Source: a bacterium (GTDB lineage: Bacteria > Omnitrophota > Gorgyraeia > Zapsychrales > Zapsychraceae). From it: a DNA stretch of 61,985 bases. Each line of letters opens with the position of its first letter. Position 1 is the first letter of the stretch. Of this stretch, positions 1,987 through 60,676 are shown one piece after another. The stretch is from assembly GCA_030429765.1 (NCBI GenBank), contig JAUIER010000022.1:1-61985 (forward strand), written 5' to 3'. A program made the translations under genes and the position numbers. The notes below the pieces were generated by a model. It was not told the DNA's origin. It made no database searches and saw only the letters and a list, made by a program, of their open reading frames with translations.

Positions 1987-1988
1987 CG

Positions 1989-11382: not shown

Positions 11383-11393
11383 TTTTTTCCTCA

Positions 11394-13242: not shown

Positions 13243-13297
13243 TAGTCTTTATGCCTATTTCCGATTTCTCCATTAAAATTATGGACAGTCACCCTTT

Positions 13298-13988: not shown

Positions 13989-14085
13989 ACTTTTTTCTCC
14001 TTGCTATATCTAGTGTAGTCAAAAACCTCAACTCCTCGTTATTCAGATAAATAAAGATTCAAGCATTATATTGTTCAAAATATTT

Positions 14086-14586: not shown

Positions 14587-14592
14587 ATCAAG

Positions 14593-14964
14593 TTATCCGC
14601 TACGCGCTTCACGCACCAATTTAACAACACGATCCCAGTGACGCATATACATCCAACGCCCAAAGATCAGCCATGGAAACAACGGCCGTTTATTGATTTT
14701 TGCCGAACATTTACTTTTCAACCACTCCGGATCAAATCCGCTCCACTCTCCCGCCATGCTCAGCAGATTACGACCGCAAACGGGATAGACTTCATAATCC
14801 AGAATATTCTTTAATTCACTTTCCGAGTAAGGTGAATCAGCTAACTCAGTCGCGATTCGTGTATAATCACTCTCACTTAATTCCGTATCAAGAAAAAATT
14901 CTGATAAAGCCTCCCACACAGGCATTCGTTGATCTGCAATATTGAAGTCTGAAGGATTTTTCAT
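14593..14964 (-). CDS. Uncharacterised protein resembling DUF7079-type family
   Basis: 123 residues, cytoplasmic. The pattern MPVWEALSEFFLDTELSESD, then ELKNILDYEVYPVCGRNLLS and MAGEWSGFDPEWL is a conserved block I have seen in small uncharacterised proteins (DUF7079-like by memory). The function is unknown; family members often occur near toxin-immunity loci, which is not evidence here. First gene of a two-gene operon with 14086-14586. Confidence 0.6.
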   Translation of the reverse strand: MKNPSDFNIADQRMPVWEALSEFFLDTELSESDYTRIATELADSPYSESELKNILDYEVYPVCGRNLLSMAGEWSGFDPEWLKSKCSAKINKRPLFPWLIFGRWMYMRHWDRVVKLVREARSG

Positions 14965-15021
14965 ATCACTTTACCTGATAAGACTCGTCACATTTCAATT
15001 CATCTAAAAAAACACGCCACA

Positions 15022-16035: not shown

Positions 16036-16045
16036 GGATAATTGA

Positions 16046-18252: not shown

Positions 18253-18280
18253 ATACCTCCTATACACATAGTTGTTAAGA

Positions 18281-41955: not shown

Positions 41956-42621
41956 ATGCTCGATCAAATCTTTCCCGCAACCGTTAAATCCATGTATGTT
42001 CGTCACGATCAACTCTCGGGCGAACTTTACCCGGAAGAAGCGGATCTCATCCGGCAAGCGCATCCCAAACGTCAACGTGAATTCACGGCCGGTCGTCTGG
42101 CCGCCCGTCAACTTCTGTCTGAGTTTGACGTCAGCGCGTTCCCCCTGCTCAGGGATCAGCGTCGGGCCCCGGTCTGGCCGGCGGGCCTCTGCGGATCTAT
42201 CTCGCATTCGCATGTGATGTGCGCCGCGGCGGTCGCCTCACGGTCTGATCATAGCAGTATTGGACTCGACATTGAACAGCTGGTGCCGATTTCTGACGGC
42301 GCGATGGCGCGCATCGCCACAGCCGCGGAACTCGCATCCCTCCAATCTTTGTCGCCTGAGGATCAACGTCTTCATCGTATGCTGATCTTCAGCGCCAAGG
42401 AGTGCGGCTATAAAAGTCAATACCCATTGACCGGCGAATGGATCAATTTTCATGACGCCACCGTTGACATCGACATCACTTCAAATACCTTCACCATCAC
42501 ATTTGTCCGCGCGATTGGGTCCGCGATTGCCCAAGGCAGCCGTCTCTTGGGACGATTTGCGATCGACTCGAATTACGTGCTGACCGGCATCCATCTGCCC
42601 GCCGATTTCAAATTTCAATAA
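41956..42621 (+). CDS. 4'-phosphopantetheinyl transferase (EntD-like)
   Basis: 221 residues. The family blocks are present: REFTAGRLAARQLL (about 35-48), GSISHSHVMCAAAVA, SIGLDIEQL (Mg-binding Asp and Glu, about 98-106) and FSAKECGYKSQYPL (about 150-163; the usual KE-x3-K-x-x order). It moves phosphopantetheine from CoA to carrier-protein serines. It almost certainly primes the five carrier domains of the NRPS and PKS genes here. Convergent with the exporter gene, with one base between stops. Confidence 0.9.
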   Translation: MLDQIFPATVKSMYVRHDQLSGELYPEEADLIRQAHPKRQREFTAGRLAARQLLSEFDVSAFPLLRDQRRAPVWPAGLCGSISHSHVMCAAAVASRSDHSSIGLDIEQLVPISDGAMARIATAAELASLQSLSPEDQRLHRMLIFSAKECGYKSQYPLTGEWINFHDATVDIDITSNTFTITFVRAIGSAIAQGSRLLGRFAIDSNYVLTGIHLPADFKFQ

Positions 42622-42622
42622 T

Positions 42623-44260
42623 CTATACCACCGGATTCATCGACTGCGGCGTTCCGACATACTCGATTTGTCCGTAGTCGAGCTTGATGATCCGGTCCGC
42701 GACCTCAAAATATTTATCATCGTGCGTGATGCAGAACACACATTTGCCCCGGCGCTTGAGCTCCGGCAATAGGGTCTTGTAGAACAATTCCTTGAATAGC
42801 GGATCCTGGTCCGCCGCCCACTCGTCAAAGACATAAAACGGTCGGTCTTCCAAATACGCCGTTACCAGGGCCAGACGTTTACGCTGTCCCTGCGACAAAG
42901 CGAGCGTGGAGAACGCATCGTCCTTGATCTCGACCTTGTGATTGAGCTGAAGCTTGTGCAGATAGTCCCGTGCCGCGTCCCGGTTATCATCGTCAATCAC
43001 GCCCAACAGACTTTCAAACAGATAAAAATCGGAGAACACCGTCGCAAACTGCTGACGGTAGACATCAAGTCGGTCTCCGGTCACGGGATTGTCATCCAAC
43101 AGGATCGTTCCCGCCTCGGGCTGATACAATCCGACCAGGATCTTGGCCAACGTGGTTTTACCACTGCCGTTACCGCCGACCAGAAACACCACCTCACCTG
43201 AATCCAAGCGAAAGTTCAGCGGGCCTAAGACAAAATCCTGCGATTCGCCTTCATGAAAATAACGATGTGTGACATCGCGCAGTTCCAAATGTTTGGCTGA
43301 TACCGTGACGCCCTGTTCTGTCGGGATCGGTTCATGGGCATTGAGTGACAATCCCAATTCTTCAAGTTTATTGAGCGACACCTGACTGCGTCCGATCTCA
43401 GGCAGTAAAGTGAAGACCGTCTCCAATGGCGAGCGCATAAACAAGATGACCAGCGCCGCGCCCATCAACACACCAGATTCCAATCCCAATCGATCCGGTA
43501 AATAAAAAATCAGTAACCCCATCATCACAAAGAACATCAGATAACCCCAGTTGGCTGCGCACGTATATAAAGAGAAGCCGATCATGTTGTGTCGTCGGTA
43601 CAATTGCGCCGTGGGCTCAAAGATACGGGTCAAAAAAGTATGCCGACGGTGACGATTCAACTTCAACTCTTTGGTTCCCTGTGTCACCGCTTCGAAATGT
43701 TCAAACAATGTGTCCTGTTTGTCGCGGGCCTTCTTCAACCGGGTTAAGGCGATAGACACCGGCCAGTGATAGCTGAGAATTGCGAGGGTCATAAACACGA
43801 GTACAAAACCCAGAAGCTTAACGGATAAATAACCTAGGTAAGCCAGGCATCCGATCATCACGATGATCTGCACGCCCATAATCGGCAGGCACAGCAAACC
43901 GCTGCTCAAACTACGCACATCATCGGTTAAGGTCGTCAACAGACGCGGCGCGCCAAGCTTCTCTAGCTGCTGCAGCGGTGTCCGCAGGATATCGCGCGAC
44001 AACCGCATACGCAGTTCAAAGATCGCCTGTTCCGACAGATAGATCAGCAAGACCTGCGACATCACCGCGGAAATAAGATTCAGCGCGCACAATCCCACAA
44101 ACCCCCAGATGAGCTGATGTCCGATGGCGTCGAGTGAATTGAGGGCGCGATGAATCATCACGATCAGCAATGTACTGCACAATCCGCTGATGATCCCGCA
44201 GATGCCGGCCCCGACAATCACACGCGGCGAGATGTTCCATAAAAACTTAAACAACCGCAT
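42623..44260 (-). CDS. Cyclic-peptide/lipopeptide ABC exporter (PvdE/SyrD type)
   Basis: 545 residues: six membrane helices (about 1-290), then an ATPase domain with Walker A VGGNGSGKTTLAK (about 362-374), signature LSQGQRKRLAL and Walker B with RPFYVFDEWAADQDP. The FDEWAADQDP string is diagnostic of the cyclic peptide exporter family (SyrD, PvdE, YojI). Works as a homodimer to move the peptide to the periplasm. Its first 14 bases overlap the end of the NRPS gene. It is the last gene of the operon and the natural exit for its product. Confidence 0.94.
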   Translation of the reverse strand: MRLFKFLWNISPRVIVGAGICGIISGLCSTLLIVMIHRALNSLDAIGHQLIWGFVGLCALNLISAVMSQVLLIYLSEQAIFELRMRLSRDILRTPLQQLEKLGAPRLLTTLTDDVRSLSSGLLCLPIMGVQIIVMIGCLAYLGYLSVKLLGFVLVFMTLAILSYHWPVSIALTRLKKARDKQDTLFEHFEAVTQGTKELKLNRHRRHTFLTRIFEPTAQLYRRHNMIGFSLYTCAANWGYLMFFVMMGLLIFYLPDRLGLESGVLMGAALVILFMRSPLETVFTLLPEIGRSQVSLNKLEELGLSLNAHEPIPTEQGVTVSAKHLELRDVTHRYFHEGESQDFVLGPLNFRLDSGEVVFLVGGNGSGKTTLAKILVGLYQPEAGTILLDDNPVTGDRLDVYRQQFATVFSDFYLFESLLGVIDDDNRDAARDYLHKLQLNHKVEIKDDAFSTLALSQGQRKRLALVTAYLEDRPFYVFDEWAADQDPLFKELFYKTLLPELKRRGKCVFCITHDDKYFEVADRIIKLDYGQIEYVGTPQSMNPVV

Positions 44261-47200
44261 CGCCGGCCTCCTTCCGTGGCTGACTCAAAATTTCAAACCG
44301 CGAACGCATATGATCGGCGATAGCCTTAATATGAGGCGTTTGCACAATCGTGTAGTGATCGGCATCCATTGAGATCACGTCCAACCGACCTTTGACCCAA
44401 CGCGTCCAACCACGCCGCGGATCGGATAACGAAAAGCTGCTGGCCTTTTTGGCGCTGAACAATGTTACATCACCGGTGTATACCTCCGGGGTGTACGCCT
44501 GATTGGCATGATAATTGGCCTTGAATACCTGAAAGACACGCTTGATGTAGGCGGCATCGAGCGACTCCGATAACACACCGGCCGTCCGGGCCTGGTGAAT
44601 GAATGCCTCGAGTTGCTGATCGGCATCATCCATTCGACGAAGCTCTGACGCGGAACAGCTCAACGGTTTTCCGGTGATACCGCTTAGGTCCTGGGCAAAG
44701 ATCTCCAACAACTGCGCGTCATCGGCATCATCCCGTCGAGGAACATAGCTGTCGATCATTCCTAAAAATTCAATCCGTTCACCATCGGCCTCCAGTTGTC
44801 GGGCCATCTCAAAAGCTATCACCCCGCCCATCGACCAACCGCTAAGTCGATATGGCCCCTGCGGCTGCACCATTCGGATCTCCGCGATATATTCACGCGC
44901 CATCTGACGAAGGGACAAGGCCTGTTCACCGCCGGAAAGCCCGCGTGATTGCATCGCGTATAACGAAATATTTTTACCCAGCGCCTTGGCCAATGACGCG
45001 TAACACATCACATTGCCGCCAATCGGATGCACACAAAATACGGGCGTGCCGAATCCATCACGCTGGATCGGGACCAACGCACGCTGCTGATACTCCGAGA
45101 CATGGCGTGACGGATCGGCCAGTACGGCCTCCAGCATTTCTCTATATTCAATCAACAATCGCTCCACGGTCTCAGACTTAAACAATTCCACGCGATAGCT
45201 CATTTCACCTACGAGTGATCCGTTCTGTTCATTAAATACCAACATCAAATCATTCTTGGCATTCTTGATCTCCTGATTGATCATCTCGATCTCCAACCCG
45301 GTATCATGCGACACCGCGCCGCCAAAGTTCTGCAGGATAAATTTCACCTGAAAGACCGCCGTACGGTCCTCAGGCTTTTCAATTCCCAGCGCTTCCTTGA
45401 CCTTGGAAAACGGCATAATGATATGGTCAAACATCTCGGCGATGGTCTGAATGTTGCGGTCGAGCAGCTGCATAAACGTGGGATCGCCCTGAAACTCATT
45501 TCGGATCACCGCAGTCTGAACGCACACACCGATGATCTTTTCCATCTCCGGCGTATGACGTCCGGCAAGTGTTGTACCGACAATGATATCCTCTTGCTGC
45601 GCGTATTTGTGCAGGAGCATGGCGAACACCGACTGCATAAACGTGAAGACCGTGACCGGCTTCGACGTGTTCTGACAAAATTCCTGAACCCGTCGGGTCA
45701 GATCCGCGCCGAGATTCAGATAGCGGATATCGCCTTCATGCCCTTGCTTGGGCGGCCGCGGATAATCCAGCGGCAGGTTTAACAGTTCCGGTACACCGTC
45801 GAGTTTCCGTTCCCAATAGTCAAATTCGCGCTGACCGATCTCACCGGCCTCAACGTCCTCACACCATTGCACATAATCGTAATACTGCACGTCCAACGGC
45901 GGGAGCGGATCAACGACCCCTTGTGGAATCGATTGATAAAATGTCATGATCTCATTGATCAATACGTCCATCGACCATCCGTCGGTGATGATGTGATGCA
46001 GATTCACTAACAGCACGAATTGCTGCGGGCCGAGGATCAGCACATCCACCTTGATCAATGGTCCGCGGCACAAATTAAAGGCGTGATGGGCATGCGTGGC
46101 CGTCATGGCCTGCACCTGTCGCTCCTGGTCCGCGGCATTGAGTCCGCTGAGATCCATCACCGGGATCTCGATCGGTAACTGGGCATGAATCTGCTGAACC
46201 ACCTTCTCTCCGCGTCGATGAAATGTCGTGCGCAGCGACTCATGCCGTTCGATAACCTTATTGACCGCGGTCGTCAGCAAGTCGTGATCCAGATCATAGT
46301 TCAGTCGGATCGCCCCGCAGATATTGTACGTAAAAGATTTCTTATCTTTTTGATAGGCGTCCCACAGCAGTTTCTGTACGTTCGGGACCGGGAGATACTT
46401 GCGTCGCGGGACCGGTTTGATCGGCGGCAGTTTGATCTGCTTGAATTCGGTGACATTGACGGTCATGCGTTCGGCAATCTGCGCGATGGTCGAGGCCTCA
46501 AATAAATGTCGGAGCGAAATCTCCAATTCTAATTCATCGCGCACGCGTGCAATTAATTGGGTCGCCATCAATGAATGTCCGCCTAGATCAAAGAAGTCAT
46601 CGTGAATGCCGACTTGCTCCACGCCTAACACGTCGGACCAGATTCGGGCCAGCTGTTGTTCAATCCTGGTGCGCGGCGCAGTGTATTCTTTTTTGACGGC
46701 ATCTTGATCACGATCGGGTTGAGGCAATTGCCGGTAATCGACCTTGCCGCTGGTATTCAGCGGAACAGACGGAATCGCGATGAAGTAAGCCGGCACCATA
46801 TAGCCTGGCAGCCGGGCCTTCAAATATTCCTGCAGCGTCTTGGCGTCCCACTCGTCGTCGCTGACCACATATGCGGCCAATGACACATCATGGGTAGATG
46901 ACGCGACCGTCTGCACCACACATTCACGGATACGGCCATGTTCAGCCAATACGGATTCTATCTCACCCAGCTCAATGCGAAAACCGCGAATCTTGACCTG
47001 ACGGTCGATGCGGCCGCGAAATTCCAATACTCCATCCATGCGTTGACGGACCAGATCTCCGGTTCGATACATGCGTTGACCGGACTCGAACGGATGTTCA
47101 ATAAAACGCTGGCGGGTCAACCCGGGTTGATTGAGATATCCCCGCGCCAGGCCCGTACCTCCGATACAAAGCTCGCCCGGCACACCCGGCGCGACGGGCC

Positions 47201-50200
47201 GTAATTGTTCGTCCAGGACATAGGCCGTTGTGTTGGCTACCGGCCGTCCGATCGGGACTTCTCTTAAAACTTTGGTATCGTTTTCGGTAACGACATGCGC
47301 GGTCGCGACCACCGTTGTCTCGGTCGGACCATAGGTGTTGATGAGTTTGGGACGCGTCCCAAACATGCGCATCCATGACTGGACCATCTCGGGCTTGGCC
47401 CGTTCACCACCAATAATCACCAACCGGACCGATTCCGGCCACACGCTTTGAATAGCTGTTTCGGATGATACCAATTGATGCCAATAGGCCGTCGGCAAAT
47501 CCAGGACAGTAATCCGTTGATCCGTGCACGTCTGAATAAACTCAGCAGCCGAACTGATCATCTGATCATTCCGTAACACCAAGGTCCCCCCCCGGGTCAG
47601 ACACGGATAAATCTCCTCCGCCGCGGCATCAAAGCTTAGCGAGGCAAATTGCAGGACACGATCTTCAGCTGTGATCTCATAATCTTGTGCGGCACCGATG
47701 ACAAAGTTGCTTAACGCCCGATGCTCAATCAAAACACCTTTGGGCTGTCCCGACGTGCCCGACGTATAAATCACATACGCCAAGTGCTCCGGTGCTACTT
47801 GGATTTCAACATTCCGTGATTGCGGTTCAAGACCAGCTAGATCAACATCCCACAGATGTTTCGGTGCATGGCTCCAGATATCATGCAGATGTTTTTGTGT
47901 CAGGACAATTTCAAGGTTTGCATCACGTCGAATATACTCCAACCGTTCAGCCGGATGGCGCGGATCAATCGGCACATAAGCGCCGCCCGCTTTCAGGATC
48001 CCCATCACCGCGACGATCATCTCTACCGAACGTTCCATGCACACGCCGATCATCTCTTGAGCTTGCACCCCATGATCAATGAGCCGCTGCGCTAACGCGT
48101 TGCTAAGCTCGTCGAGCTGCCGATAACTCAAAGACGCGTCATTGGATTCAACGGCCGTGGCGGCCGGTGTTCGGCGGGCCTGTTCTTGAAACAATTCCTG
48201 AACGGTCCGATCGACATCAATCGCGCGCGGGTTGATCATGGCTTGAACCACGCCCTCATCGTGCTCGATCATGCGATACGACGAGATCGGCTGATGGATA
48301 TCCCGCGCCACGGAACGCATCAGTCCTTCGAGATAACGGCTCATGGCCTGCACGGTCGCCTCATCATAAACATCGCTATTGTATTCGAGTGAGCCCGTCA
48401 AACCTTCATCCGTCTCGACAAAACCAAATGTTAATTCAAACTTGGCCGTGCCCGTATCTTGGTCCAATGGCTCTAGCTCGAGATTGGCAATCCGTGAGCT
48501 CTTGGCCATCGGCGTGTTCTGCAGCACAAACATCACCTGAAACCACGGTGAATGACTCAAACTGCGTTCAGGTTTCAGCACATCGATCAGATGCTCAAAC
48601 GGCACATGCGGATGCTCAAAGTCGGATAGATCCGATTGACGAATGCGATCGAGCAATTCCTTGAACGTCGGATTACCGGACAAGTCCGCGCGCAGCACCA
48701 TCGTGTTCACAAAAAAACCGATCAGTCCTTCGACATTTTTATTCGGCCGATTGGCCAGCGGCGATCCTAGAACGATATCTTCCTGACGGCTAAAGCGGTT
48801 GAGCATGATCACCAGGATCGTGTGCAGGACCATAAACAAGGTGGATTGATTGTCCCGCGCGATCACGTTGAGCTGATCCGCCACCGCCCGCGGGATCTGA
48901 AAACTGATATTCGACCCGCGATATGTTTCCACCGGCGGTCGGATGCGATCGGTGGGCATGTCCAGCAACTGCGGCGCCCCACGCAATCGATCTTCCCAAT
49001 ATTTCAATTGCGACTCGAGCATCTCGCCCTTGAGCCATTGATTTTGCCAGTACGCAAAGTCAGCATACTGCACCGGTAACTCCTCCAACGGAGACGGCTG
49101 ATCATGATAGAAGGCATCGTACAGCTGAGAAAATTCTTTGATCAAGATCTCGGTCGACCAACCATCCGAAATAATATGATGCATGGTAAAGAGCAGCACG
49201 TGGTCTTCATCATCCAGTTTGACGATCTCACCGCGGACCATCGGTCCGGTGGACAGATCAAACGGCCGGCGCGCGTCCTCCGCCACCAAGCGTTCGACAC
49301 GGTGGCGCTGTTCATCTTGGCCTAACGCCGACAGATCACGCTGCTTGAGCCGGAAGGGTTCGATGATGTCCGTCACCTGATACGGACTGCCACCCTCGGA
49401 TAAAAACCGTGTTCGAAATACCTCATGTCGTCGCACAATCTCGCCAAAGACCTTTTCAAATAGATCGGGATTCATGTGGCCGCGAATGCGAATAGCCACC
49501 GGCATATTGTAGGTTGCGTTGGATCCTTCCAATTGGTCCAGAAACCACAGTCGCTGCTGCGCGAAGGACAGCGGCAGGTGTTGATCCCGCGGTACAGGCG
49601 TTACATCAAAACTCGTGCCGGTCGTGGTCGCGTTGTCCGCGTCGCTAAGCGTCGCGGCCAATCCGGCAATAGTCGGCGTCTCAAATAGTCGACGTAGCGG
49701 TACGTCAGCTCCAAAAGTTTCATAGATCCGGGTAATCAGCTGCGCCGCCAATAAAGAGTGCCCGCCAAGCTCAAAGAAATTATCCTCGATACCGATCCGG
49801 TTTAATCCCAACACCTCAGACCACAATTCGCTGAGCTGCTGTTCTTCCGCATTGCGCGGCGCCACATAATTTTCATGTTGGACATCTTCCCCTTCAGCGG
49901 GATCAGGCAATGCCGCCGCATCGACTTTGCCATTTACGGTCAACGGCAACTGCGCCATCGGTATGATAAATGACGGCACCATATAATTCGGCATCCGCTC
50001 GGACATATACTCTCGCAAATCAGCCGCCGGAATGTCATCACTCAGTACCACATAGGCCACCAGCACCCGGACCTGCTCAGAGCGTTCCAGGACATGAACA
50101 AATACCTCGGACACCGCCGGATGCTGCGCCAACGCCGCCTCGATCTCACCGAGCTCAATGCGATAACCGCGGATCTTGACCTGCTTATCAACCCGTCCTA

Positions 50201-53200
50201 AATACTCGATCTGTCCGTCGGTGCGATACCGCACCAAATCGCCCGTGCGATACATCCGTTGGGCATCCTCCACGAATGGATCCCGCACAAATTTTTCAGT
50301 GGTCAGCTCCGCCCGGTTCAAATAACCACGGGCCAGACCGTGTCCGCCGATATACAATTCACCTGGTACACCCACCGGCACCGGGTTGTGATGAGCATCC
50401 AGAATATAGGCCGTTAAATTCGACACCGGCCGTCCGATGGGGATATCACGTTGCGGTTCACCGCAAAAATCGTTCGGCGTGATAAAGTATGACGTGGCGA
50501 CAATCGTCGCCTCGGTCGGCCCATAGGTATTGAGCACACGTGGTCCGTTGGGGTAGCGTTCAAACCAGGCCTTCATGGCCTGCGCCGAAACTTTTTCCCC
50601 GCCGAATAAAATAAAACGAAGCCCGTCCGGTAATGGGAGATCCTTGGAAAGGATTTCATGACTCAATTGATGCCAGTACGCGGTCGGCATATCCCAGATG
50701 GTGATCCCATGCCGATGACTTTCATCGACAAAAGTCGCCGCGGTGCGGATGGATTCCTCGGTGCGGACAACCAAGGTGGCGCCGGCCACCAGCGTACAAA
50801 AGATCTCCTCGGCCGCCGCGTCAAAACTGATCGACGAAAACTGAAACAGCCGATCCTGCGGCGTCATCTCAAACTGCTCAATCGCGTGCGCCACATAATT
50901 GACCAGCGAATCATGCTGGATCATCACCCCTTTGGGCTTACCGGTTGTGCCGGACGTATAAATCACGTAGGCCAAATTCTTATCCGATACCTCAACCGTT
51001 GGATTGCTCGTCGATAACGAGTCCCAGTTGAGATTTTGAAAGATACTTTCAGTCAATATCTCACGTAAACATGCGTCCTCTTGCATGAACGTCTGACGCT
51101 CCGCCGGATAAGCCGGATCGATCGGCACATAGCCCGCGCCCGACTTCAACACCCCGAGCATCGCGACAATCATGTCCATCCCGCGTTGAAAAGAGATTCC
51201 GACTAACTGATCAGATCCAATCTCCTTGTTGATCAGATAATCCGCCACTTGATTGGCGCGCGCGTTGAGTTGTTCATACGTCAAGGATTGGTTATCGTAA
51301 ACCACCGCGACGGCATCGGGCTGCTGGCGCACGCGCTGTTCAAACCAGTGATGCAGGCACCCATCATATGCAAATTTTTGGGACGTCTGATTCCACTCTT
51401 CGACAACCTGCTGTCGTTCCGGCGACGCCATGAGTTGATACTCAGAAACGGCGCATTCATCGTCCGCAATCACCTGATCAATCAGGTGTCGATAGTAATT
51501 CACCAGCCGCTGAGCGGTCGCGCGGTCATACAGATCCGTCTTAAACTGCAGGATCCCGGTGATGCCATCCTTTTGTTCTTGCATGTCCACGGTGATATCA
51601 AACATCGATGTCTGATTGCGTTGCTCCATCAGCGACATCGTGAAATCATCGGTCGAGAGATCATCCAGCGGCGCATTCTGCAAGGCGAAAAAGATCTGAA
51701 ACCACGGTGCGTGACTTAAACTGCGTTTGACGCCCATCTTTTCAATCAGCTGTTCAAACGGCACATGCGGATAGTCAAACGCATCGAGATCTGCCTCTTT
51801 GACACGTCGCAACAGTTCAGCAAATGACGGATTGCCTGACACATCCGAACGTAATACCAACGAATTAACAAAAAATCCGATCATCCGCTCCACATCGCTG
51901 TTATGGCGGTTTGCCACCGGCGTGCCGATAACGATATCTTCCTTACCGCTGTAACGGTAGAGCAACATCACAAAAATAGCATGCAGGACCATAAACAATG
52001 TAGCGCCATGACGCGCCGCACAGGCCTTCAACGCCTGATACGTATCGTCATCAATCCTGAAATTGATAAAATCACCGTCGAAGTTTTCCACGGCCGGCCG
52101 CGGTCGATCGGTCGGCATCTCCAACAAGGCGGGCGCGCCGGCCAATTTTTGTTTCCAGAAATCCAATTGCCGTGTCAGCACATTACCCTGCAGCCATTGA
52201 CGCTGCCAGTGCGCAAAATCAATATATTGAACCGGCATGTCCGCAAGCGGATTGCTTTGATCCCGTTGCAAGGCCGTGTAGAGCGCCTTAAACTCACTTA
52301 AAAATATCCCCATCGACCAGCCATCCGACACGATATGATGCATGGTCAGCAACAAAATGTGACGATTGTCAGATAACTTGAGCAGATTCAAGCGGACCAG
52401 TAAGTCATCCTTCAGTGCAAACGGTTGTTGCGTCTCGGCATCGATATGACGCTGCGCTTCCCGCTGCTGTTGATCCGCGGGGATATGGGTGAGATCAATG
52501 ATCGGCATCTCAAAAAACGCCTCAGCGCGGATCGTTTGATGCGCCTGACCTTCCTGACTACTGTAGTTGGTGCGCAGCACTTCATGCCGTTGCAAGATGA
52601 TATTAAAGGCCTGTCGGACCAGATCCGTCTCGAGCCTTCCGTTGATATCTACGGCAAAGGCCAGATTGTAGGTCGCGTTGAGACCTTCCATTTGATCCAG
52701 AAACCACAATCGCTGCTGCGCAAATGACAACGGCAAACGCCCCTCACGCCCCACCGGATGAATATCCATCGCCCGGCCGCTGGACCCATCCGGCGCGGCC
52801 GCGTCAATGATCGCGGCAATGGCGGCTATCGTTGGCGTATTGAATATCTGCCGCAACGGGATTTCAACTTCAAACGTCTGCCGCACCCGGGAGACCATCT
52901 GTGTCGCTAACAATGAGTGCCCGCCCAGATCAAAAAAGTTATCATGAATACCCACTCGGGCCATCTTGAGAATCGCCGTCCAAATCTCGACGAGCTTTGC
53001 CTCTGTACCGGTTCGGGCAGCGACATAATTTTCATCGACGGATACGGCGACACTTTCCACATTCGGCAATCGTTTACGGTCGACCTTGCCATTGGGGGTT
53101 AACGGCATGTCATCGATGGCCGCAAAATGTGACGGGACCATGTACTCCGGCAGATGTTCTTTAAGATAATCACGTAATGCCGATGTTTTGAGCTGTTCAT

Positions 53201-56039
53201 TCCCGGTCACGTAGTACGCGGCAAGCCGCCGGTCGGATTCGTCACCCGTCACCACGACAGCACATAAATTGACATCGTCGTGTTTAGATAAGGCCGCCTC
53301 GACTTCACCTAGTTCTATCCGATAGCCGCGAATCTTGACCTGATGATCAATTCGTCCCAGATATTCGAGCTGTCCATTGGGTTTATAACGGACCAGGTCG
53401 CCGGTCTTGTAGAGACGATCTCCCTCATTGCCGAATGGTGATGAGATAAATTTTTCCGCTGTTAATTCTGCGCGGTTCAGATACCCGCGTGCCAGTCCAT
53501 CACCGCCGATGTGTAGTTCACCGGACACGCCGACCGGGACTGGATTGAGCTGCTGGTCGAGGACATAACACTGAGTATTGGCAATCGGTCGTCCGATCAA
53601 TTCACATCCGCCCGTCTCTTCACGATTCGCGCCTACGTCCGGCAGGACTTGATAGATTGTCGACCAGATCGTCGTCTCGGTCGGTCCATACATATTCCAC
53701 AAACACCGGCCTTTATCGATCAGCTGTCGTGACAGACTTCGATGCAAGGCCTCACCGCCGCACAGCATGGTGAGATGCGGATGCCCTTGCCAGCCTGATT
53801 CCAGGAGCAACCGCCACGTCGCCGGCGTGGCCTGAAGAAATGTCGCACGATTCAGGAGCTTGATGAGTTGCGGTCCATCCGTGGCTGTCTCCCGGCTGAC
53901 CATCAGGACACGCGCGCCGGTGATCAACGGCAAAAAAATCTCGAGCACGGAGATATCAAAGGACACCGTCGTCACTGCAAGAATGGTATCGTCCGGCGTC
54001 AAACCGGGTTCACGCTGCATCGACTGCAAAAAATTCATCAACGCGCCGTGCGGAATTTGCACCCCTTTGGGCTTGCCGGTCGAACCCGACGTAAAAATCA
54101 CATAGGCCAAATCATCCGCATTTAATGTTATCGGTTTGTAGATGGCGGGATCCATCGTGTCGACTTGATCCATCAACACCAGGCTCGCTTCGGTGACAAA
54201 ATCTCCGGCTAAATCTTCTTGAGTAATCAGCACCGGCGCGTCCGCGTCCTCGAGAATAAACTCAATTCGTTCCCGTGGATACAGCGGGTCTAGCGGCACA
54301 TAGGCCCCGCCGGACTTTAACACCGCCAGCAACGCCACCACCAGATCGATCGAACGTTCGACCAAGACGCCGACCATTCGGTTGGGGCCGACCCCCATGC
54401 TCTGCAGATGACCCGCCAATCGATCGGTCCGTTCGTTGAGCTCTTGATAACTCAGCGTTTGACCTTCAAACTCGATCGCGATTGCATCCGGTCGCGCCGC
54501 GACCATATCGGCAAATTGCCGATGCACCGTCACGGCACGATCATAATCCATCTGGGTCTGGTTCCAATCGGTGAATTGCTGCTTGATCTCCTCCGCACCC
54601 AGCATCGGATAGGTTTTCAACGGCTGATCGGGATTGTCCACCACGGCCATCAACAACCGTTCAAAGTGTCCGCACATCCGCTGAATGGTGGCGTGATCAA
54701 ACAAATCGGTATTGTACCGAAAGAATCCGCACAGCGTCGTTCCGGCCTCAATCATCTCCAGATTGAGATCAAAACGCGACTCCTGTTCATGAAACGCGAA
54801 CGGTTCGACGGTCAACGGTCCCCATTGCACCGGTTCGCGATCCGACTCGCCGGTCATCAATTCAGCCACGGCATGAAACTTATGCGGCCGCTGCAAGGTA
54901 AATAAAGTTTGGATCAAGGGCGAGCGCGATAGATCACGCGTTACCTCGATTGAATCGAGCAGGTACGGAAACGGCATATCCTGATGCGCCATCCCCTCGA
55001 GAATATCCTGTCGAGTGCGTTGAAGTAATGAATGAAACGTGTCGTCCTCCGTGATCTGCGCGCGCTGCACGATGATATTGGCAAAGTATCCGACCAATCC
55101 GGCCAGATCATCCTCCGAGCGACCGGTCGTGGGATAACCGACCAGGATATCATTCTGTTGGGAATAGCGATGCAGGAGCGTTTGATAGACGCTCATTAAA
55201 TAAGTAAACAGCGTGGAACGTTGCGCCTTGGCCGCCGCCTTCACACGTGCGGTGAGTTCGGCTGACAAAACAAAAGTACAGGTATCTCCCTGATAGGTCT
55301 TCATCGGCGGACGCGGACGGTCCGTCGGTAAATCTAATGTCGGTAATTCGCCTGACAAACGGCGGTGCCAGTAGGCCTCAAGCCTTCGCCCCTCTTCACT
55401 GTCGATAAGCTGTCGTTGCCGCTGGACATAGGCGGTATACTTTACCGTGAGCGATTTGAGGATCGGTGAACGCTGTTCGATCCGCGCGGCGTAAAGTTCG
55501 CCCAGCTCTTCCAGCAACAGCCAGACCGACCATCCGTCACACACACTGTGATGTATCGTAATCAACAGCACATGCTCGCTTTGATCGCGCGTGTAGACGT
55601 TCACCCGAAAAAGCGGTCCCTTTTGCAGATCAAACGGCGTCTCGTACACAGCGCGCATCTCCCGCTCGAGATCAGCGTCCGTCCAAGTTGTTGCATCGTG
55701 GGTCTCGAGCTGAACCTCCTGCCGATTGTGGATCACCTGACGCGGATGGTCTTCCGATTTATCAAAGGTAGTGCGTAAACTGGCATGACGGGCAATGAGA
55801 TCGTTAAGGGCCTGCCGAAAGATGGATGTGTCCAGTGGTGAAGTGATACGCGCGGCACAAGGTATCGTGTAGGTGGCCACATCCGGATAGGATTCGGCAA
55901 TCACCCACAAGGCCTCTTGACCATAACTGGCCGGCGCAAAAGTCTTGGCCAACCCAGCCTTTTTCTTGAGAAGTTTTTCTAGGATCGTCCGTTTCTGATC
56001 CAGACTTAGCTGCTTAATTTCCTGGGCGCTGAGTTTCAT
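44247..56039 (-). CDS. Three-module NRPS with extra terminal C domain and TE
   Basis: 3930 residues. Approximate order: C1 30-470 (HHSVCDG), A1 500-1010, T1 1020-1085 (FFDLGGHSLL), C2 1100-1540 (HHIVSDG), A2 1560-2065, T2 2075-2140, C3 2155-2600 (HHIISDG), A3 2625-3125, T3 3135-3200, C4 3220-3650 (HHIITDG), TE 3670-3925 (GWSMGG, later DHY). All catalytic motifs look intact; no epimerisation or methylation domains. Pocket residues I read by alignment to GrsA: A1 DILQLGMIWK (Gly-like), A2 DAEDLGTIVK and A3 DAEDIGTVVK (acidic, fitting Lys or another basic residue). C4 is joined straight to TE with no A or T domain, which is unusual. It starts inside the stop of the PKS gene (4 bases). Confidence 0.95.
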   Translation of the reverse strand: MKLSAQEIKQLSLDQKRTILEKLLKKKAGLAKTFAPASYGQEALWVIAESYPDVATYTIPCAARITSPLDTSIFRQALNDLIARHASLRTTFDKSEDHPRQVIHNRQEVQLETHDATTWTDADLEREMRAVYETPFDLQKGPLFRVNVYTRDQSEHVLLITIHHSVCDGWSVWLLLEELGELYAARIEQRSPILKSLTVKYTAYVQRQRQLIDSEEGRRLEAYWHRRLSGELPTLDLPTDRPRPPMKTYQGDTCTFVLSAELTARVKAAAKAQRSTLFTYLMSVYQTLLHRYSQQNDILVGYPTTGRSEDDLAGLVGYFANIIVQRAQITEDDTFHSLLQRTRQDILEGMAHQDMPFPYLLDSIEVTRDLSRSPLIQTLFTLQRPHKFHAVAELMTGESDREPVQWGPLTVEPFAFHEQESRFDLNLEMIEAGTTLCGFFRYNTDLFDHATIQRMCGHFERLLMAVVDNPDQPLKTYPMLGAEEIKQQFTDWNQTQMDYDRAVTVHRQFADMVAARPDAIAIEFEGQTLSYQELNERTDRLAGHLQSMGVGPNRMVGVLVERSIDLVVALLAVLKSGGAYVPLDPLYPRERIEFILEDADAPVLITQEDLAGDFVTEASLVLMDQVDTMDPAIYKPITLNADDLAYVIFTSGSTGKPKGVQIPHGALMNFLQSMQREPGLTPDDTILAVTTVSFDISVLEIFLPLITGARVLMVSRETATDGPQLIKLLNRATFLQATPATWRLLLESGWQGHPHLTMLCGGEALHRSLSRQLIDKGRCLWNMYGPTETTIWSTIYQVLPDVGANREETGGCELIGRPIANTQCYVLDQQLNPVPVGVSGELHIGGDGLARGYLNRAELTAEKFISSPFGNEGDRLYKTGDLVRYKPNGQLEYLGRIDHQVKIRGYRIELGEVEAALSKHDDVNLCAVVVTGDESDRRLAAYYVTGNEQLKTSALRDYLKEHLPEYMVPSHFAAIDDMPLTPNGKVDRKRLPNVESVAVSVDENYVAARTGTEAKLVEIWTAILKMARVGIHDNFFDLGGHSLLATQMVSRVRQTFEVEIPLRQIFNTPTIAAIAAIIDAAAPDGSSGRAMDIHPVGREGRLPLSFAQQRLWFLDQMEGLNATYNLAFAVDINGRLETDLVRQAFNIILQRHEVLRTNYSSQEGQAHQTIRAEAFFEMPIIDLTHIPADQQQREAQRHIDAETQQPFALKDDLLVRLNLLKLSDNRHILLLTMHHIVSDGWSMGIFLSEFKALYTALQRDQSNPLADMPVQYIDFAHWQRQWLQGNVLTRQLDFWKQKLAGAPALLEMPTDRPRPAVENFDGDFINFRIDDDTYQALKACAARHGATLFMVLHAIFVMLLYRYSGKEDIVIGTPVANRHNSDVERMIGFFVNSLVLRSDVSGNPSFAELLRRVKEADLDAFDYPHVPFEQLIEKMGVKRSLSHAPWFQIFFALQNAPLDDLSTDDFTMSLMEQRNQTSMFDITVDMQEQKDGITGILQFKTDLYDRATAQRLVNYYRHLIDQVIADDECAVSEYQLMASPERQQVVEEWNQTSQKFAYDGCLHHWFEQRVRQQPDAVAVVYDNQSLTYEQLNARANQVADYLINKEIGSDQLVGISFQRGMDMIVAMLGVLKSGAGYVPIDPAYPAERQTFMQEDACLREILTESIFQNLNWDSLSTSNPTVEVSDKNLAYVIYTSGTTGKPKGVMIQHDSLVNYVAHAIEQFEMTPQDRLFQFSSISFDAAAEEIFCTLVAGATLVVRTEESIRTAATFVDESHRHGITIWDMPTAYWHQLSHEILSKDLPLPDGLRFILFGGEKVSAQAMKAWFERYPNGPRVLNTYGPTEATIVATSYFITPNDFCGEPQRDIPIGRPVSNLTAYILDAHHNPVPVGVPGELYIGGHGLARGYLNRAELTTEKFVRDPFVEDAQRMYRTGDLVRYRTDGQIEYLGRVDKQVKIRGYRIELGEIEAALAQHPAVSEVFVHVLERSEQVRVLVAYVVLSDDIPAADLREYMSERMPNYMVPSFIIPMAQLPLTVNGKVDAAALPDPAEGEDVQHENYVAPRNAEEQQLSELWSEVLGLNRIGIEDNFFELGGHSLLAAQLITRIYETFGADVPLRRLFETPTIAGLAATLSDADNATTTGTSFDVTPVPRDQHLPLSFAQQRLWFLDQLEGSNATYNMPVAIRIRGHMNPDLFEKVFGEIVRRHEVFRTRFLSEGGSPYQVTDIIEPFRLKQRDLSALGQDEQRHRVERLVAEDARRPFDLSTGPMVRGEIVKLDDEDHVLLFTMHHIISDGWSTEILIKEFSQLYDAFYHDQPSPLEELPVQYADFAYWQNQWLKGEMLESQLKYWEDRLRGAPQLLDMPTDRIRPPVETYRGSNISFQIPRAVADQLNVIARDNQSTLFMVLHTILVIMLNRFSRQEDIVLGSPLANRPNKNVEGLIGFFVNTMVLRADLSGNPTFKELLDRIRQSDLSDFEHPHVPFEHLIDVLKPERSLSHSPWFQVMFVLQNTPMAKSSRIANLELEPLDQDTGTAKFELTFGFVETDEGLTGSLEYNSDVYDEATVQAMSRYLEGLMRSVARDIHQPISSYRMIEHDEGVVQAMINPRAIDVDRTVQELFQEQARRTPAATAVESNDASLSYRQLDELSNALAQRLIDHGVQAQEMIGVCMERSVEMIVAVMGILKAGGAYVPIDPRHPAERLEYIRRDANLEIVLTQKHLHDIWSHAPKHLWDVDLAGLEPQSRNVEIQVAPEHLAYVIYTSGTSGQPKGVLIEHRALSNFVIGAAQDYEITAEDRVLQFASLSFDAAAEEIYPCLTRGGTLVLRNDQMISSAAEFIQTCTDQRITVLDLPTAYWHQLVSSETAIQSVWPESVRLVIIGGERAKPEMVQSWMRMFGTRPKLINTYGPTETTVVATAHVVTENDTKVLREVPIGRPVANTTAYVLDEQLRPVAPGVPGELCIGGTGLARGYLNQPGLTRQRFIEHPFESGQRMYRTGDLVRQRMDGVLEFRGRIDRQVKIRGFRIELGEIESVLAEHGRIRECVVQTVASSTHDVSLAAYVVSDDEWDAKTLQEYLKARLPGYMVPAYFIAIPSVPLNTSGKVDYRQLPQPDRDQDAVKKEYTAPRTRIEQQLARIWSDVLGVEQVGIHDDFFDLGGHSLMATQLIARVRDELELEISLRHLFEASTIAQIAERMTVNVTEFKQIKLPPIKPVPRRKYLPVPNVQKLLWDAYQKDKKSFTYNICGAIRLNYDLDHDLLTTAVNKVIERHESLRTTFHRRGEKVVQQIHAQLPIEIPVMDLSGLNAADQERQVQAMTATHAHHAFNLCRGPLIKVDVLILGPQQFVLLVNLHHIITDGWSMDVLINEIMTFYQSIPQGVVDPLPPLDVQYYDYVQWCEDVEAGEIGQREFDYWERKLDGVPELLNLPLDYPRPPKQGHEGDIRYLNLGADLTRRVQEFCQNTSKPVTVFTFMQSVFAMLLHKYAQQEDIIVGTTLAGRHTPEMEKIIGVCVQTAVIRNEFQGDPTFMQLLDRNIQTIAEMFDHIIMPFSKVKEALGIEKPEDRTAVFQVKFILQNFGGAVSHDTGLEIEMINQEIKNAKNDLMLVFNEQNGSLVGEMSYRVELFKSETVERLLIEYREMLEAVLADPSRHVSEYQQRALVPIQRDGFGTPVFCVHPIGGNVMCYASLAKALGKNISLYAMQSRGLSGGEQALSLRQMAREYIAEIRMVQPQGPYRLSGWSMGGVIAFEMARQLEADGERIEFLGMIDSYVPRRDDADDAQLLEIFAQDLSGITGKPLSCSASELRRMDDADQQLEAFIHQARTAGVLSESLDAAYIKRVFQVFKANYHANQAYTPEVYTGDVTLFSAKKASSFSLSDPRRGWTRWVKGRLDVISMDADHYTIVQTPHIKAIADHMRSRFEILSQPRKEAGDAVV

Positions 56040-59000
56040 GAGTCACGGTCCGTATCGCTGATGATCGAGCTCAACAATTCATCGATTTGATCTTCGCTCA
56101 GAGAATCCAGCTGATCCAAAATCCGTTCGTCCACCGGCACCTGATCGGGTAACGGTTGGACGGGTTTCTCCTCATCCTGCTTGGCTGATACCGATGTTGG
56201 CGTCGATGATTGATCAAATCGATGCTCAAGCAGGTTCATGACATATTCGGCAAAGCTCACCACCGTTGTGTCGTCGACGAGAAGTTCAAGAATATGCACA
56301 TTGACCTGCAAATCTTCGTTGACCCGCGCGCGCAGTTCCATCGCCATGATCGAATCGATCCCCATTTCATTGAGATCCAAGTCCACATCCAGTTCATCAA
56401 CAGGCATCTCCAATCCCTGCGCGATCAACTCACGCAGGTACTGAGTCATCAGCGCCAAACGCGCGTCTGGTGCGGCCTGGGAAAGCGAGTCGAGAATTGT
56501 TGATCGAGGACTTTCGCCCGGTTTGGCATGGGTCGACGTTGCTGCGTCCGGATCAAGTACGGTTCGCAGACGTTCAAGCAGATGCGGCAGCACCTTTTGA
56601 GCGTCGTTATTCAAGGCCGGATCGTTATTGAGCTTCTCAATGATCTCATCGAGCGCATATCGCTTTTGGCGATGCGTTTGATCCTTGGGTTGGGCTGATT
56701 TTCCTTCGGCCGCATAGGCACTGCTGAACCAGTACTTGCTGTGCGTGAACGGATACACCGGCAGACGTTGACGTTGAAATTCAATGTCAGCATAAAATTT
56801 ATCCCAGTCAATAGCGGCACCCCCGCAATATTCATTGGCAATCGCGCATAACTCGGCGTGCATCGACGGTTCATGCAATCCCAGCAATGACGTCAATCCC
56901 AACGGTTGATGATCAGGCCGGCGGTCCAAGGTCGAGCTTGTTGAATGATACACACCGTCCGCCCCGACCTCCGACAAACGATCAAGCTTATCCATCAGTT
57001 CACGTCGATTCCGGACCACTAACGCCACGCGATGTTCGTTGTAATGATCCCGTGTCACGGCGGCACTCACACACCAATCGGCAAATTGTTCATCTTCAAT
57101 GTTTATCAGTTGCGCCTGATAATCCTGCACCAGTTGATCCAATGACGTGGACGACTTGGCCGAAATCAAAAAGATATGATACGGTCGCGGCGTGGATTGT
57201 GCCGTCACCGGCCTGCCTTCTTCGACGATCACGTGCGCGTTCGTCCCGCCAAATCCGAAACTGCTCACACCGGCCAATCTGGATGTTGCCCCGTGCGGCC
57301 AATCACAGGATTGAGTTGGAATCTGTAGACCGTCGGACAGTTTGATCAATGGGTTAATTGTCTTTAGATGCAGATGCGCCGGCACGGTCTCATGCTCCAT
57401 CGACAAAATGATCTTGATCAAACCGGCGATTCCGGCGGCTGATTCCAGGTGACCGATATTGGTTTTGACCGATCCCACCCGGCAGATTTTATCGGCAGGG
57501 CGTCCGTTCATATAAACTGATTGTATGCTGTTCATCTCAATGGGATCACCCAGTTCTGTTCCGGTGCCGTGCGCTTCCACATAAGAAACATCCGCCGGCG
57601 CAACATCGGCCCGCTTCAGGGCCTGCTGAATCACGGCCTGTTGCGACGGACCGTTAGGCGCGGTCAGTCCGTTGCTCAGTCCGTCCTGATTAATCGCGGA
57701 TCCGCGGATGACCGCCCGGATCATATCACCATCGCGTTGGGCCTCTGACAATCTTTTAAGGATCAACACCCCGCAGCCTTCGCCCCGGCTGTAACCGTCG
57801 GCGCCGGCGCTAAAGGTCTTGCAGCGTCCGTCGGCCGCCATCATGCGGGCCTGCGAAAAGGATACGGTTCCTTCCGGCGACAAAATCACATTCGCCCCGC
57901 CGACAATGGCCGCGTTGATCTCGCCGGTCCGTAAACTCTGACATGCCTGATGCACCGCCACCAGCGATGACGAGCACGCCGTGTCGATCGTCAGGCTGGG
58001 TCCACGCAGATCTAAGAGGTACGACAAACGGTTCGCGGCGATGCTTAAGGCCGTTCCGGTCACCGAGTAGGCATCCACATCCCGTAAATCCTGAGTTAAT
58101 TGTTTTTGATAATTGCTGTGACTGATCCCCATATAGACGCCGGTCGCTGTACCGCGCAGCCGCCGCTGCGGCCATCCGGCATCATCCAGCGCCTCGCGCG
58201 CGACCTCAAGGATCATGCGCTGCTGCGGATCCATTTTACGGGCCTCCCGCGGCGATATACCAAAGTAATCGGCATCAAATCCATCGACGGATTTCAAGAA
58301 TCCGCCCCAACGCGTATTCATCTTTCCGGCCTCACCGACATTCGCGTCATATAGTTCGCCAAGGTCCCAGCGGTTGGACGGCACTTCACTGATCGCGTCG
58401 ATGCCGTTCTTTAATAGTTTCCAGAATTCACCGGCCGAGTCCGCTCCCGGAAATCGGCAACTGAGTCCGACGACGGCGATAAAATCATTATCCGTAGTTT
58501 TACTAACTGTAGGACGTGATACCGGCGTCGCACTTGGTTCGGCCGCGGCCAGATGTTCGCTCAATAACTGTACGGTGGGATAGTCATATATTAGGGTAGG
58601 CGATAGCGGTCGATTGAGCCATTGTTCGAGTTCGGTGGTGATATTAATCGCCTGGATGGAATCCAGTCCATAACGGTCGATCGGCGCGGTGATGTCAATC
58701 GTGGATGCGTCAATGCTGAGGGCCTGGGCCATTTGTTGGGTCAGCCAACACTGAATCTCCACGGCTGATGAAGCAGATGCGCTTGAGTTCGGCCGTTTCT
58801 CTGACTCTTCTTTGTGTAAAATCGTCTTCGGCCACGTGGCGATGGGCTCGAGATCCCCTGACATGAAGCGTTCACGCATCATCCGCCGCTGGATCTTGCC
58901 GCTGGAAGTCTTGCCGACGGCGGCAGGCTTTAATAAATAAATCTCCGCCACCGGGACCTGATGTTCCTGATTGACACGTTCACGGATCTGATCAAAAATT

Positions 59001-60574
59001 TCGTCGGCATTAAAGGAACGCAACTGGGTCCGCTCCACTTCCTGAACCACGATCAACGCCTCACCCTCGCCACGATCCACACTAAACGCCGCGCCCGCAT
59101 GCGGCTTTAAATCGGCATGACTGGTCTCAACGGTGCGTTCGATATCCTGCGGATAATAGTTCTTGCCGCGGATGATCAGCATTTCTTTGAGACGTCCGGT
59201 GATAAACAATTCGCGGCCGCATTTAAATCCTAGATCACCGGTCCTGAGATAGGTTTGATCGACGCCCGCGCATCGGCCTTCAAAAACCTCCAGCGTGGCA
59301 TCAGGATTGCGCCAATAACCCTGACTGACACTGCCTCCGCGCACCCAGATCTCACCGATCTGCTCATCGTCGCAGGAGCGGCATGACTCGGGATCGACGA
59401 TCCGGATCTCTTCATCCAGCCACGCGTGGCCGCAACTGACCACGGCCTGCGAACGGGGTGAACCAGGCTCCCCATAGCTCACACGATGCGCGGCCAATTG
59501 ATCCTTGTCGACATACTTAATACATGGTTTTTGATCAGCCTCACCGCCCGAGATAAATACGGTGGTCTCGGCCATACCATAACATGGATAAAACGCGCGG
59601 TAATCAAATCCAAATCGTTTAAACTTGTCGGCGAAACGCTCAAGCGTTTGGGCCCGCACCGGTTCAGCCCCGGTAAAGGCAACGCGCCATGACGACAAAT
59701 CCAGCCCTTCACAGTCGGATGGATTGATCTTGTCCACACACAGATCGTATCCAAAATTGGGTCCGCCGCAGGCCGTCCCGCCATATTGACTGATCGCCTT
59801 GAGCCAGCGCAATGGTTTCTGGATAAACGCCACCGGCGGCATACGCACGGTATGGATCCCCAGGTAGACTGGTTCCAGAATATTACCGATCAACCCCATA
59901 TCATGATAGTGCGGCAGCCAACCGACACCGATGGTGCGGTCCGAACTGCCGAACGCCTGTTCGATCATTCGGAGATTGTGCATCAGTCCGCGATGCGAGA
60001 TCATCACGCCTTTGGGTTTGGAGGTGGACCCGGAGGTGTATTGAAGAAAGGCCAGACTGTCGGGATCGACGTCCGGCGTAGTAAATTCAAATGGTTGGTT
60101 CACGGATTGTTCTAGCAGTCGATCAGTAACTACGATCTGTACCGACGGATCGATGGCAAAGACATCCGGTCGTGACTGGATCAATTCGTAAATGCTTGAC
60201 GCGCAGCAAATGAGCGTCGGTCGCGCGTCCTGCATCACATTCTTCAACGGATCCGCCGAGCGCGGGTTGCGCGGCGGATTCACCGGCACCGCCACCACGC
60301 CGGCGTACAGGCAACCAAAAAACGCCGGAATAAAGTTCATTCCCGACGGGTAGACCAACAAGGCGCGATCGCCGGGCCGGGCAACACCTTTTAAGTGCCG
60401 CGCGATGCGACAAGCCTTCTCATGCAATTCGCCGTACGTGTATTCCGCGGATACATCTTCCCCGTTACTTAAAAATGTAAACGCGGTCTTGTCACAACGC
60501 ACCCTGGCCTGCCGGTCCAGGACGCCCATGAGATGTTCACAGGAAGCGTCTTCAGCTGATGGAGTGGAACTCAT
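56036..60574 (-). CDS. FAAL-ACP-KS-ACP hybrid loading and extension protein, no AT
   Basis: 1512 residues. FAAL about 1-590 (FLQYTSGSTSKPKGVMISH; GWLPHYHDMGLIG; CGGPNFGYDLC) makes acyl-AMP from a free fatty acid. ACP1 has its Ser near 638 (YGLDSIQA). KS about 710-1130 has DTACSSSL (Cys near 865), EAHGTGT and KTNIGH. Then come the usual KS-AT linker (NEHRVALVVRNRREL) and the post-AT linker (RLPVYPFTHSKYW) with no AT between them. ACP2 has its Ser near 1406 (MGIDSIMA). The end (LDSLSEDQIDELLS) looks like a docking helix. No KR, so the new keto group should remain. First gene of the operon. Confidence 0.94.
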   Translation of the reverse strand: MSSTPSAEDASCEHLMGVLDRQARVRCDKTAFTFLSNGEDVSAEYTYGELHEKACRIARHLKGVARPGDRALLVYPSGMNFIPAFFGCLYAGVVAVPVNPPRNPRSADPLKNVMQDARPTLICCASSIYELIQSRPDVFAIDPSVQIVVTDRLLEQSVNQPFEFTTPDVDPDSLAFLQYTSGSTSKPKGVMISHRGLMHNLRMIEQAFGSSDRTIGVGWLPHYHDMGLIGNILEPVYLGIHTVRMPPVAFIQKPLRWLKAISQYGGTACGGPNFGYDLCVDKINPSDCEGLDLSSWRVAFTGAEPVRAQTLERFADKFKRFGFDYRAFYPCYGMAETTVFISGGEADQKPCIKYVDKDQLAAHRVSYGEPGSPRSQAVVSCGHAWLDEEIRIVDPESCRSCDDEQIGEIWVRGGSVSQGYWRNPDATLEVFEGRCAGVDQTYLRTGDLGFKCGRELFITGRLKEMLIIRGKNYYPQDIERTVETSHADLKPHAGAAFSVDRGEGEALIVVQEVERTQLRSFNADEIFDQIRERVNQEHQVPVAEIYLLKPAAVGKTSSGKIQRRMMRERFMSGDLEPIATWPKTILHKEESEKRPNSSASASSAVEIQCWLTQQMAQALSIDASTIDITAPIDRYGLDSIQAINITTELEQWLNRPLSPTLIYDYPTVQLLSEHLAAAEPSATPVSRPTVSKTTDNDFIAVVGLSCRFPGADSAGEFWKLLKNGIDAISEVPSNRWDLGELYDANVGEAGKMNTRWGGFLKSVDGFDADYFGISPREARKMDPQQRMILEVAREALDDAGWPQRRLRGTATGVYMGISHSNYQKQLTQDLRDVDAYSVTGTALSIAANRLSYLLDLRGPSLTIDTACSSSLVAVHQACQSLRTGEINAAIVGGANVILSPEGTVSFSQARMMAADGRCKTFSAGADGYSRGEGCGVLILKRLSEAQRDGDMIRAVIRGSAINQDGLSNGLTAPNGPSQQAVIQQALKRADVAPADVSYVEAHGTGTELGDPIEMNSIQSVYMNGRPADKICRVGSVKTNIGHLESAAGIAGLIKIILSMEHETVPAHLHLKTINPLIKLSDGLQIPTQSCDWPHGATSRLAGVSSFGFGGTNAHVIVEEGRPVTAQSTPRPYHIFLISAKSSTSLDQLVQDYQAQLINIEDEQFADWCVSAAVTRDHYNEHRVALVVRNRRELMDKLDRLSEVGADGVYHSTSSTLDRRPDHQPLGLTSLLGLHEPSMHAELCAIANEYCGGAAIDWDKFYADIEFQRQRLPVYPFTHSKYWFSSAYAAEGKSAQPKDQTHRQKRYALDEIIEKLNNDPALNNDAQKVLPHLLERLRTVLDPDAATSTHAKPGESPRSTILDSLSQAAPDARLALMTQYLRELIAQGLEMPVDELDVDLDLNEMGIDSIMAMELRARVNEDLQVNVHILELLVDDTTVVSFAEYVMNLLEHRFDQSSTPTSVSAKQDEEKPVQPLPDQVPVDERILDQLDSLSEDQIDELLSSIISDTDRDS

Positions 60575-60637
60575 TGGATACTTTTGTTACGGATGTTAGA
60601 AATTTTTTACCTAAATATTGATCTCAGTTAACGACCT

Positions 60638-60667
60638 AATATACGGCAACTCCTAACTCATTGTCAA
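60638..60667 (-). promoter_or_regulatory. Sigma70-type promoter of the lipopeptide operon
   Basis: Minus strand: TTGACA (60667-60662), an 18-base spacer, TATATT (60643-60638). Start expected near 60631, giving a leader of about 57 bases to the ATG at 60574. It closely resembles the oxidase promoter at 5158-5186 in both hexamers. Confidence 0.7.
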
Positions 60668-60676
60668 CAAGACAAT
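60660..60676. promoter_or_regulatory. Candidate operator: perfect palindrome over the -35 box
   Basis: ATTGTC, AACAA, GACAAT: six-base perfect arms, five-base spacer, covering the -35 hexamer at 60662-60667. A dimeric repressor bound here would block the promoter. No regulator gene is next to it, so the identity is open. Confidence 0.45.

Follow-up and report, generated by a model that had tools for sequence, protein, structure and literature searches.

A compact PKS-NRPS assembly line, probably for an exported short cationic lipopeptide, ends in an unusual condensation-thioesterase pair

The window, as we call the DNA analysed here, spans the whole of contig C30 (61,985 bases), which belongs to a 34-contig draft genome of 3.31 Mb that is 95% complete. 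Three genes on its minus strand overlap one another: a PKS of 1,512 aa with the domain order FAAL-ACP-KS-ACP (56036-60574), an NRPS of 3,930 aa with the order C1-A1-T1-C2-A2-T2-C3-A3-T3-C4-TE (44247-56039), and an ABC exporter of the SyrD/PvdE family (42623-44260). The domains of both synthases are recognised by Pfam and NCBIfam models, and the order proposed in a sequence-only reading of this DNA, from the FAAL through the TE to the exporter on one strand, is borne out. The overlaps measure 4 bases between the PKS and NRPS genes and 14 bases between the NRPS and exporter genes, as that reading had stated. A gene for an Sfp/EntD-type phosphopantetheinyl transferase (PPTase; 41956-42621, plus strand; PF17837 and PF01648) converges on the exporter gene, also as described there, with the two stop codons one base apart. 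The PKS and NRPS reading frames contain no internal stops, and at 1,512 and 3,930 codons they extend far beyond chance. Four HHxxxDG motifs, three LGGHS motifs and one TE GxSxG motif are intact in the NRPS, and the PKS translation contains the Cys, His and His of the KS and the serines of both ACPs. Of the features that characterise a FAAL-initiated lipopeptide PKS-NRPS, the sequence shows a FAAL followed by an ACP, and intact C, A and T domains with a releasing TE.

An RND (HAE-type) permease gene with no adjoining adaptor (38846-41902, minus strand; PF00873, 567 bits) diverges from the PPTase gene, with 53 bases between the two. The diverging pump of the sequence-only reading is thus present, although it falls outside the coordinates given for the cluster in that reading. 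Since RND matches are numerous in this genome and the permease is one of many, it is uncertain whether it belongs to the cluster. At the other end of the locus, 1.4 kb separate the PKS start from the end of the contig, and no tested open reading frame in this stretch has a Pfam match. A promoter-like site (TTGACA-18-TATATT; 60638-60667, minus strand; 11 of 12 matches) precedes the PKS start by 63 bases and is the closest match within the 20 kb that were scanned, in which 14 sites in total were found against 18.1 expected. Because the contig ends so close to the PKS, the upstream completeness of the locus depends on this site and on the lack of a Pfam-matching reading frame. The locus had been called apparently complete; that description holds as far as the contig extends, and a further gene may lie upstream of the PKS, beyond the contig end. 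No tailoring or resistance gene that would help to fix the product structure was found in the locus, and a defence-library scan of the exporter and PPTase gave only generic ATPase-type matches.

The NRPS contains three full modules, all on the minus strand. The first consists of C1 (54600-55949; HHSVCDG; PF00668), A1 (53055-54539; PF00501) and T1 (52815-53018; LGGHS; PF00550), the second of C2 (51405-52745; HHIVSDG), A2 (49920-51344) and T2 (49665-49862; LGGHS), and the third of C3 (48255-49586; HHIISDG), A3 (46725-48206) and T3 (46467-46658; LGGHS). We read the specificity codes of the A domains by anchoring them on the GrsA PheA positions with the final Lys517 assumed; for A1, position 278 was assigned from its motif because simple alignment shifted it by one residue. 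The resulting code of A1, DILQLGMIWK, is a Gly code (PMC12283262), which supports the prediction that A1 activates Gly, the first residue proposed earlier. The codes of A2 (DAEDLGTIVK) and A3 (DAEDIGTVVK) both carry Asp278 and Glu239. The Arg consensus consists of Asp235, Ala or Val236, Glu239, Asp278, Ile, Val or Leu299, and Gly301, and the Lys code is DGEDHGTVVK (PMC12283262), with which the A3 code shares 8 of 10 positions. A literature search for the A2 and A3 codes returned no verbatim occurrence. These codes support the assignment of A2 and A3 as domains that would activate basic residues, either Lys or Arg, in agreement with the two basic residues of the sequence-only reading.

Downstream of T3, the NRPS continues directly into a fourth condensation domain and the TE, with no A domain or carrier following C4. 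The C4 domain (45075-46397, minus strand; PF00668, 304.7 bits) has the motif HHIITDG, and the TE (44295-45062, minus strand; PF00975) has the motif GWSMG. The predicted structure of C4 is a complete condensation fold with a pLDDT of 92.5, and its closest solved structures are ordinary C domains, those of Txo2 and TycC. Of about 38 positions that are well conserved in the family, C4 deviates from the consensus at 9, compared with 3 to 5 for C1 through C3, so it may be inactive. Among the 126 C domains in the loci that we fetched, 112 precede an A domain and none precedes a TE. We searched for similar C-TE endings among the best candidates per genome, and no match spanned both domains in 49 named genomes, in 339 genomes of the cyanobacterial phylum or in 392 genomes of the planctomycete phylum. 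A-T-C-TE endings that seemed to be present in plasmid matches were rejected, as the ordered domains read C-A-T-TE. A literature search for C-TE returned unrelated matches or a review table only. The C4-TE pair is the most unusual feature of the assembly line; the sequence-only reading had listed it correctly but had left this most out-of-place feature undiscussed.

Two explanations of the C4-TE ending are about equally likely. One is that C4 acts as an amide synthase that joins the T3-bound lipotripeptide to a free amine such as putrescine, spermidine or agmatine, with the TE serving in proof-reading or being vestigial, and we give this somewhat less than an even chance. The precedent is module 13 of the glidonin synthetase, in which C13 directly adds putrescine and from which product is still obtained in TE mutants, and a terminal C domain is also seen in the lines for several putrescine-bearing peptides (PMC10587159). 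The line considered here resembles glidonin module 13 in closing with a C domain that has no A domain to activate an amino acid: C4 is terminal, has an intact HHxxxDG and lacks a partner A domain. The catalytic motif and a high-confidence C fold have been kept even though no carrier lies downstream, and the greater departure of C4 than of C1 through C3 from the consensus also fits this explanation. However, glidonin has a partial A domain and a T domain between its C and TE domains, and the T13 that follows C13 is essential (PMC10587159), whereas C4 is fused straight to the TE and no T follows it. In addition, the fold of C4 best matches the ordinary C domains of TycC and Txo2 rather than a C domain that uses a free amine.

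The other explanation, to which we assign a similar, slightly less than even, chance, is that C4 is the relic of a fourth module that lost its A and T domains, and that the TE itself takes over the T3-bound chain, which it would hydrolyse or cyclise, for instance through the side chain of a Lys. Comparison plasmid loci usually end in C-A-T-TE, and no C domain in the fetched loci precedes a TE; both points are in keeping with this explanation, as are the intact TE motif and the greater divergence of C4 than of C1 through C3. Decay would be expected of an inactive domain, however, and C4 is of full length, with an intact catalytic motif and a confidently predicted fold.

The chain that reaches the NRPS would be built by the PKS, all of whose domains are likewise on the minus strand. 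Its FAAL (fatty acyl-AMP ligase) domain (58844-60532) is matched by PF00501, PF23024 and NCBIfam FAAL models, and its closest solved chains are 7r7g, annotated as 'Polyketide synthase', and FadD-type FAALs. It is followed by ACP1 (58547-58759; GLDSIQA; PF00550), which accords with the lipid loading by a FAAL that had been proposed, and then by the ketosynthase (57218-58483; PF00109, PF02801 and PF16197), which retains its Cys (DTACSSS) and both His residues (EAHGTGT and NIGHLES). The region from 56435 to 57217 consists of a KS-AT linker and a post-AT linker (LPVYPFTHSKYWF), recognised by a PF22621 match and by alignment, and the AT domain itself is deleted; ACP2 (56219-56434; GIDSIMA; PF00550/PF23297) follows. 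No AT model matched the PKS, and alignment with the AT-containing PKS of L005, a locus in a planctomycete MAG, shows that both linkers have been kept and that the whole AT is absent. Since only the AT has been lost, malonyl must come in trans.

This loading module is not unprecedented, as it corresponds to the AT-less FAAL-ACP-KS-ACP of the iturin and mycosubtilin synthetases minus their aminotransferase. MycA and ItuA both have this architecture without an AT, receive malonyl in trans from FenF and ItuD, respectively, and feed a lipopeptide NRPS (PMC3039948, PMC11751314). Unlike the PKS described here, MycA and ItuA have an aminotransferase that leads to a beta-amino fatty acid. No aminotransferase model matched our PKS or NRPS, so a chain that keeps its beta-keto group is expected. 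The iturin and mycosubtilin operons also carry a dedicated malonyl-CoA transacylase gene, which this locus lacks, and their products are heptapeptides, in contrast to the three modules, Gly-basic-basic, of this NRPS.

Other loci resemble the loading half to different degrees. L008 and L020 lack the AT in the same way, and L007, in a planctomycete MAG, is likewise AT-less. In L007, FAAL-ACP-KS-ACP is followed by C-A with a Gly-like code, but this locus carries an aminotransferase and has no C-TE. L020 also has an aminotransferase after its loading module, which our PKS does not. L005 has FAAL-ACP-KS-AT-ACP followed by C-A with a Gly code on the next gene, and differs in keeping its AT, in having a Ser code next and in showing no C-TE, its sequence being cut by the contig end. 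L005 and L007 thus repeat the arrangement seen here, in which the FAAL-KS loading unit is immediately followed by a Gly code. In L008, from a deltaproteobacterial MAG, the AT-less FAAL-ACP-KS-ACP (ORF 9977-19063) is followed by a reductase-like NAD_binding_4 domain, and then by a partial C domain, an A domain, a T domain and a second NAD_binding_4 stretch. The sequence-only reading knew of no described cluster with this domain order; the whole order, namely AT-less loading without an aminotransferase, three modules and C-TE, is indeed absent from all of the loci that we examined, so the unfamiliarity stands for the whole only, the loading half being known from MycA and ItuA and from L007, L008 and L020.

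The source of malonyl depends on an AT outside the locus. The AT/fabD model PF00698 has no match in the locus or in the whole assembly, but it matched in 28 of the 37 genomes searched among relatives, and the same-genus genome has fabD. Contig C1 of our assembly (L161), on which we assigned gene names by reading translations, ends inside fabH in the order rsmD-coaD-DUF177-plsX-fabH, which fabD continues in relatives. Because this contig stops exactly where relatives have fabD, we doubt that the gene is truly absent; judging its position by synteny, fabD probably sits in an assembly gap. The lack of an AT in cis and in the assembly would fit a KS that is unproductive, so that the acyl chain passes unextended, or a KS that acts as a transfer domain, either of which would give a plain fatty acyl-Gly-basic-basic product. 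We consider this unlikely, since the catalytic residues of the KS are intact, the KS of MycA and ItuA works with a trans-acting AT, and the missing fabD has a probable place in the gap. The beta-keto extension of the sequence-only reading is upheld by the intact KS and the lack of an aminotransferase, but the malonyl loading that it needs calls for an AT that the locus does not contain.

The exporter scores 504.8 bits against TIGR01194, 'cyclic peptide export', for which the cut-off is 286.2, which supports the export function assigned to it earlier. As in other SyrD/PvdE/YojI exporters of this family, its score exceeds the cut-off and its gene lies directly downstream of the NRPS gene, but no periplasmic maturation gene was recognised at the locus. 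PvdE is a member of the same exporter family, and basic residues can be converted to hydroxamates, from which one could suppose that the product is a siderophore or an acylated precursor exported by a PvdE-like transporter. This seems very improbable, as the predicted and scanned genes beside the cluster include no recognisable hydroxylase, acetyl or formyl transferase, acylase or TonB receptor.

Taken together, the locus is probably a hybrid PKS-NRPS cluster for the synthesis and export of a short cationic lipopeptide, which would consist of a fatty acyl-Gly plus two basic residues. In the pathway that we propose, the PPTase would arm the carrier domains, and the FAAL would convert a free fatty acid into acyl-AMP and load it onto ACP1. 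A trans-acting AT, most likely the cell's FabD, would place malonyl on ACP2, and the KS would then extend the acyl chain once to give a beta-ketoacyl chain. The NRPS would receive this chain and add first Gly and then two basic residues, for which Lys or Arg is predicted. The T3-bound chain would be released at C4-TE, where either C4 would join a small free amine or the TE would free an acid or lactam, and the SyrD/PvdE-type exporter would move the product out. This pathway is supported by experiments on MycA with FenF and ItuA with ItuD, in which the same loading module receives malonyl in trans, and by the overlap of the genes behind one strong promoter-like site.

C domains scored over the cut-off in only one of the 92 genomes searched among relatives, namely the source genome, and a C4-TE query matched only the source genome among 334 genomes of the phylum. 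The bacterial group therefore appears otherwise to lack this kind of enzyme. In the same-genus genome, L171 (G001:C26:11000-30999) encodes an unrelated 2,500-aa type I PKS (ORF 478-7977, minus strand) with KS and AT domains and no C domains. The contig is native to the lineage: its cox operon is syntenic with the one in the same-genus genome, at 62-81% identity, and in composition the cluster is similar to the remainder of its genome, with a tetranucleotide profile that correlates at 0.86-0.94 with all but one of nine own-contig samples. Outside the cox operon, the window and the same-genus contig have no genes in common. Contamination of the metagenome bin, which the lack of another C4-TE match in the phylum might suggest, is rejected as exceedingly unlikely on the basis of the cox-operon synteny and the composition. 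No donor of the cluster was found among the best candidates per genome in the 49 named genomes and the 339 and 392 genomes of the two phyla, the best C4 match being about 36% identical. An old horizontal acquisition whose composition was adjusted later is likely. In an RpoB tree, the lineage lies apart from Proteobacteria, Planctomycetota, Cyanobacteria, Bacteroidota and Actinobacteria, and the Parachlamydiales are nearest among the rows used (94/90), from which we infer an uncultivated lineage near the PVC group.

Two other regions of the contig have features of their own. Two adjacent proteins of about 900 aa are encoded at 21469-26924, the second of which (24204-26924) consists of MORN_2 repeats ending in ankyrin repeats, and the first shows similar repeats by eye. 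The region at 10873-15000 has a lower G+C content (about 41-42%, compared with 50%) and encodes an RHS-repeat protein at 11394-12515; it is possibly acquired or a polymorphic-toxin remnant.

The loading half of this assembly line is less novel than had been thought, and its unusual points are the C-TE ending and its isolated occurrence, with an NRPS in a lineage for which the C4-TE query gave no second match in the 334 sampled genomes of the phylum. The farthest-reaching interpretation is that C4-TE is a hitherto undescribed working termination unit, in which a carrier-less C domain joined to a TE attaches a free polyamine to give a beta-ketoacyl-Gly-basic-basic-polyamine amphiphile in a lineage with no other known NRPS; we regard this as a rather doubtful proposal. 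If the predicted pathway is correct, the locus would represent a compact way for two proteins to build a short cationic lipopeptide, a type of compound that is linked with membrane activity. It would also provide a test of whether an assembly line can finish with a C domain to which a TE is directly fused.
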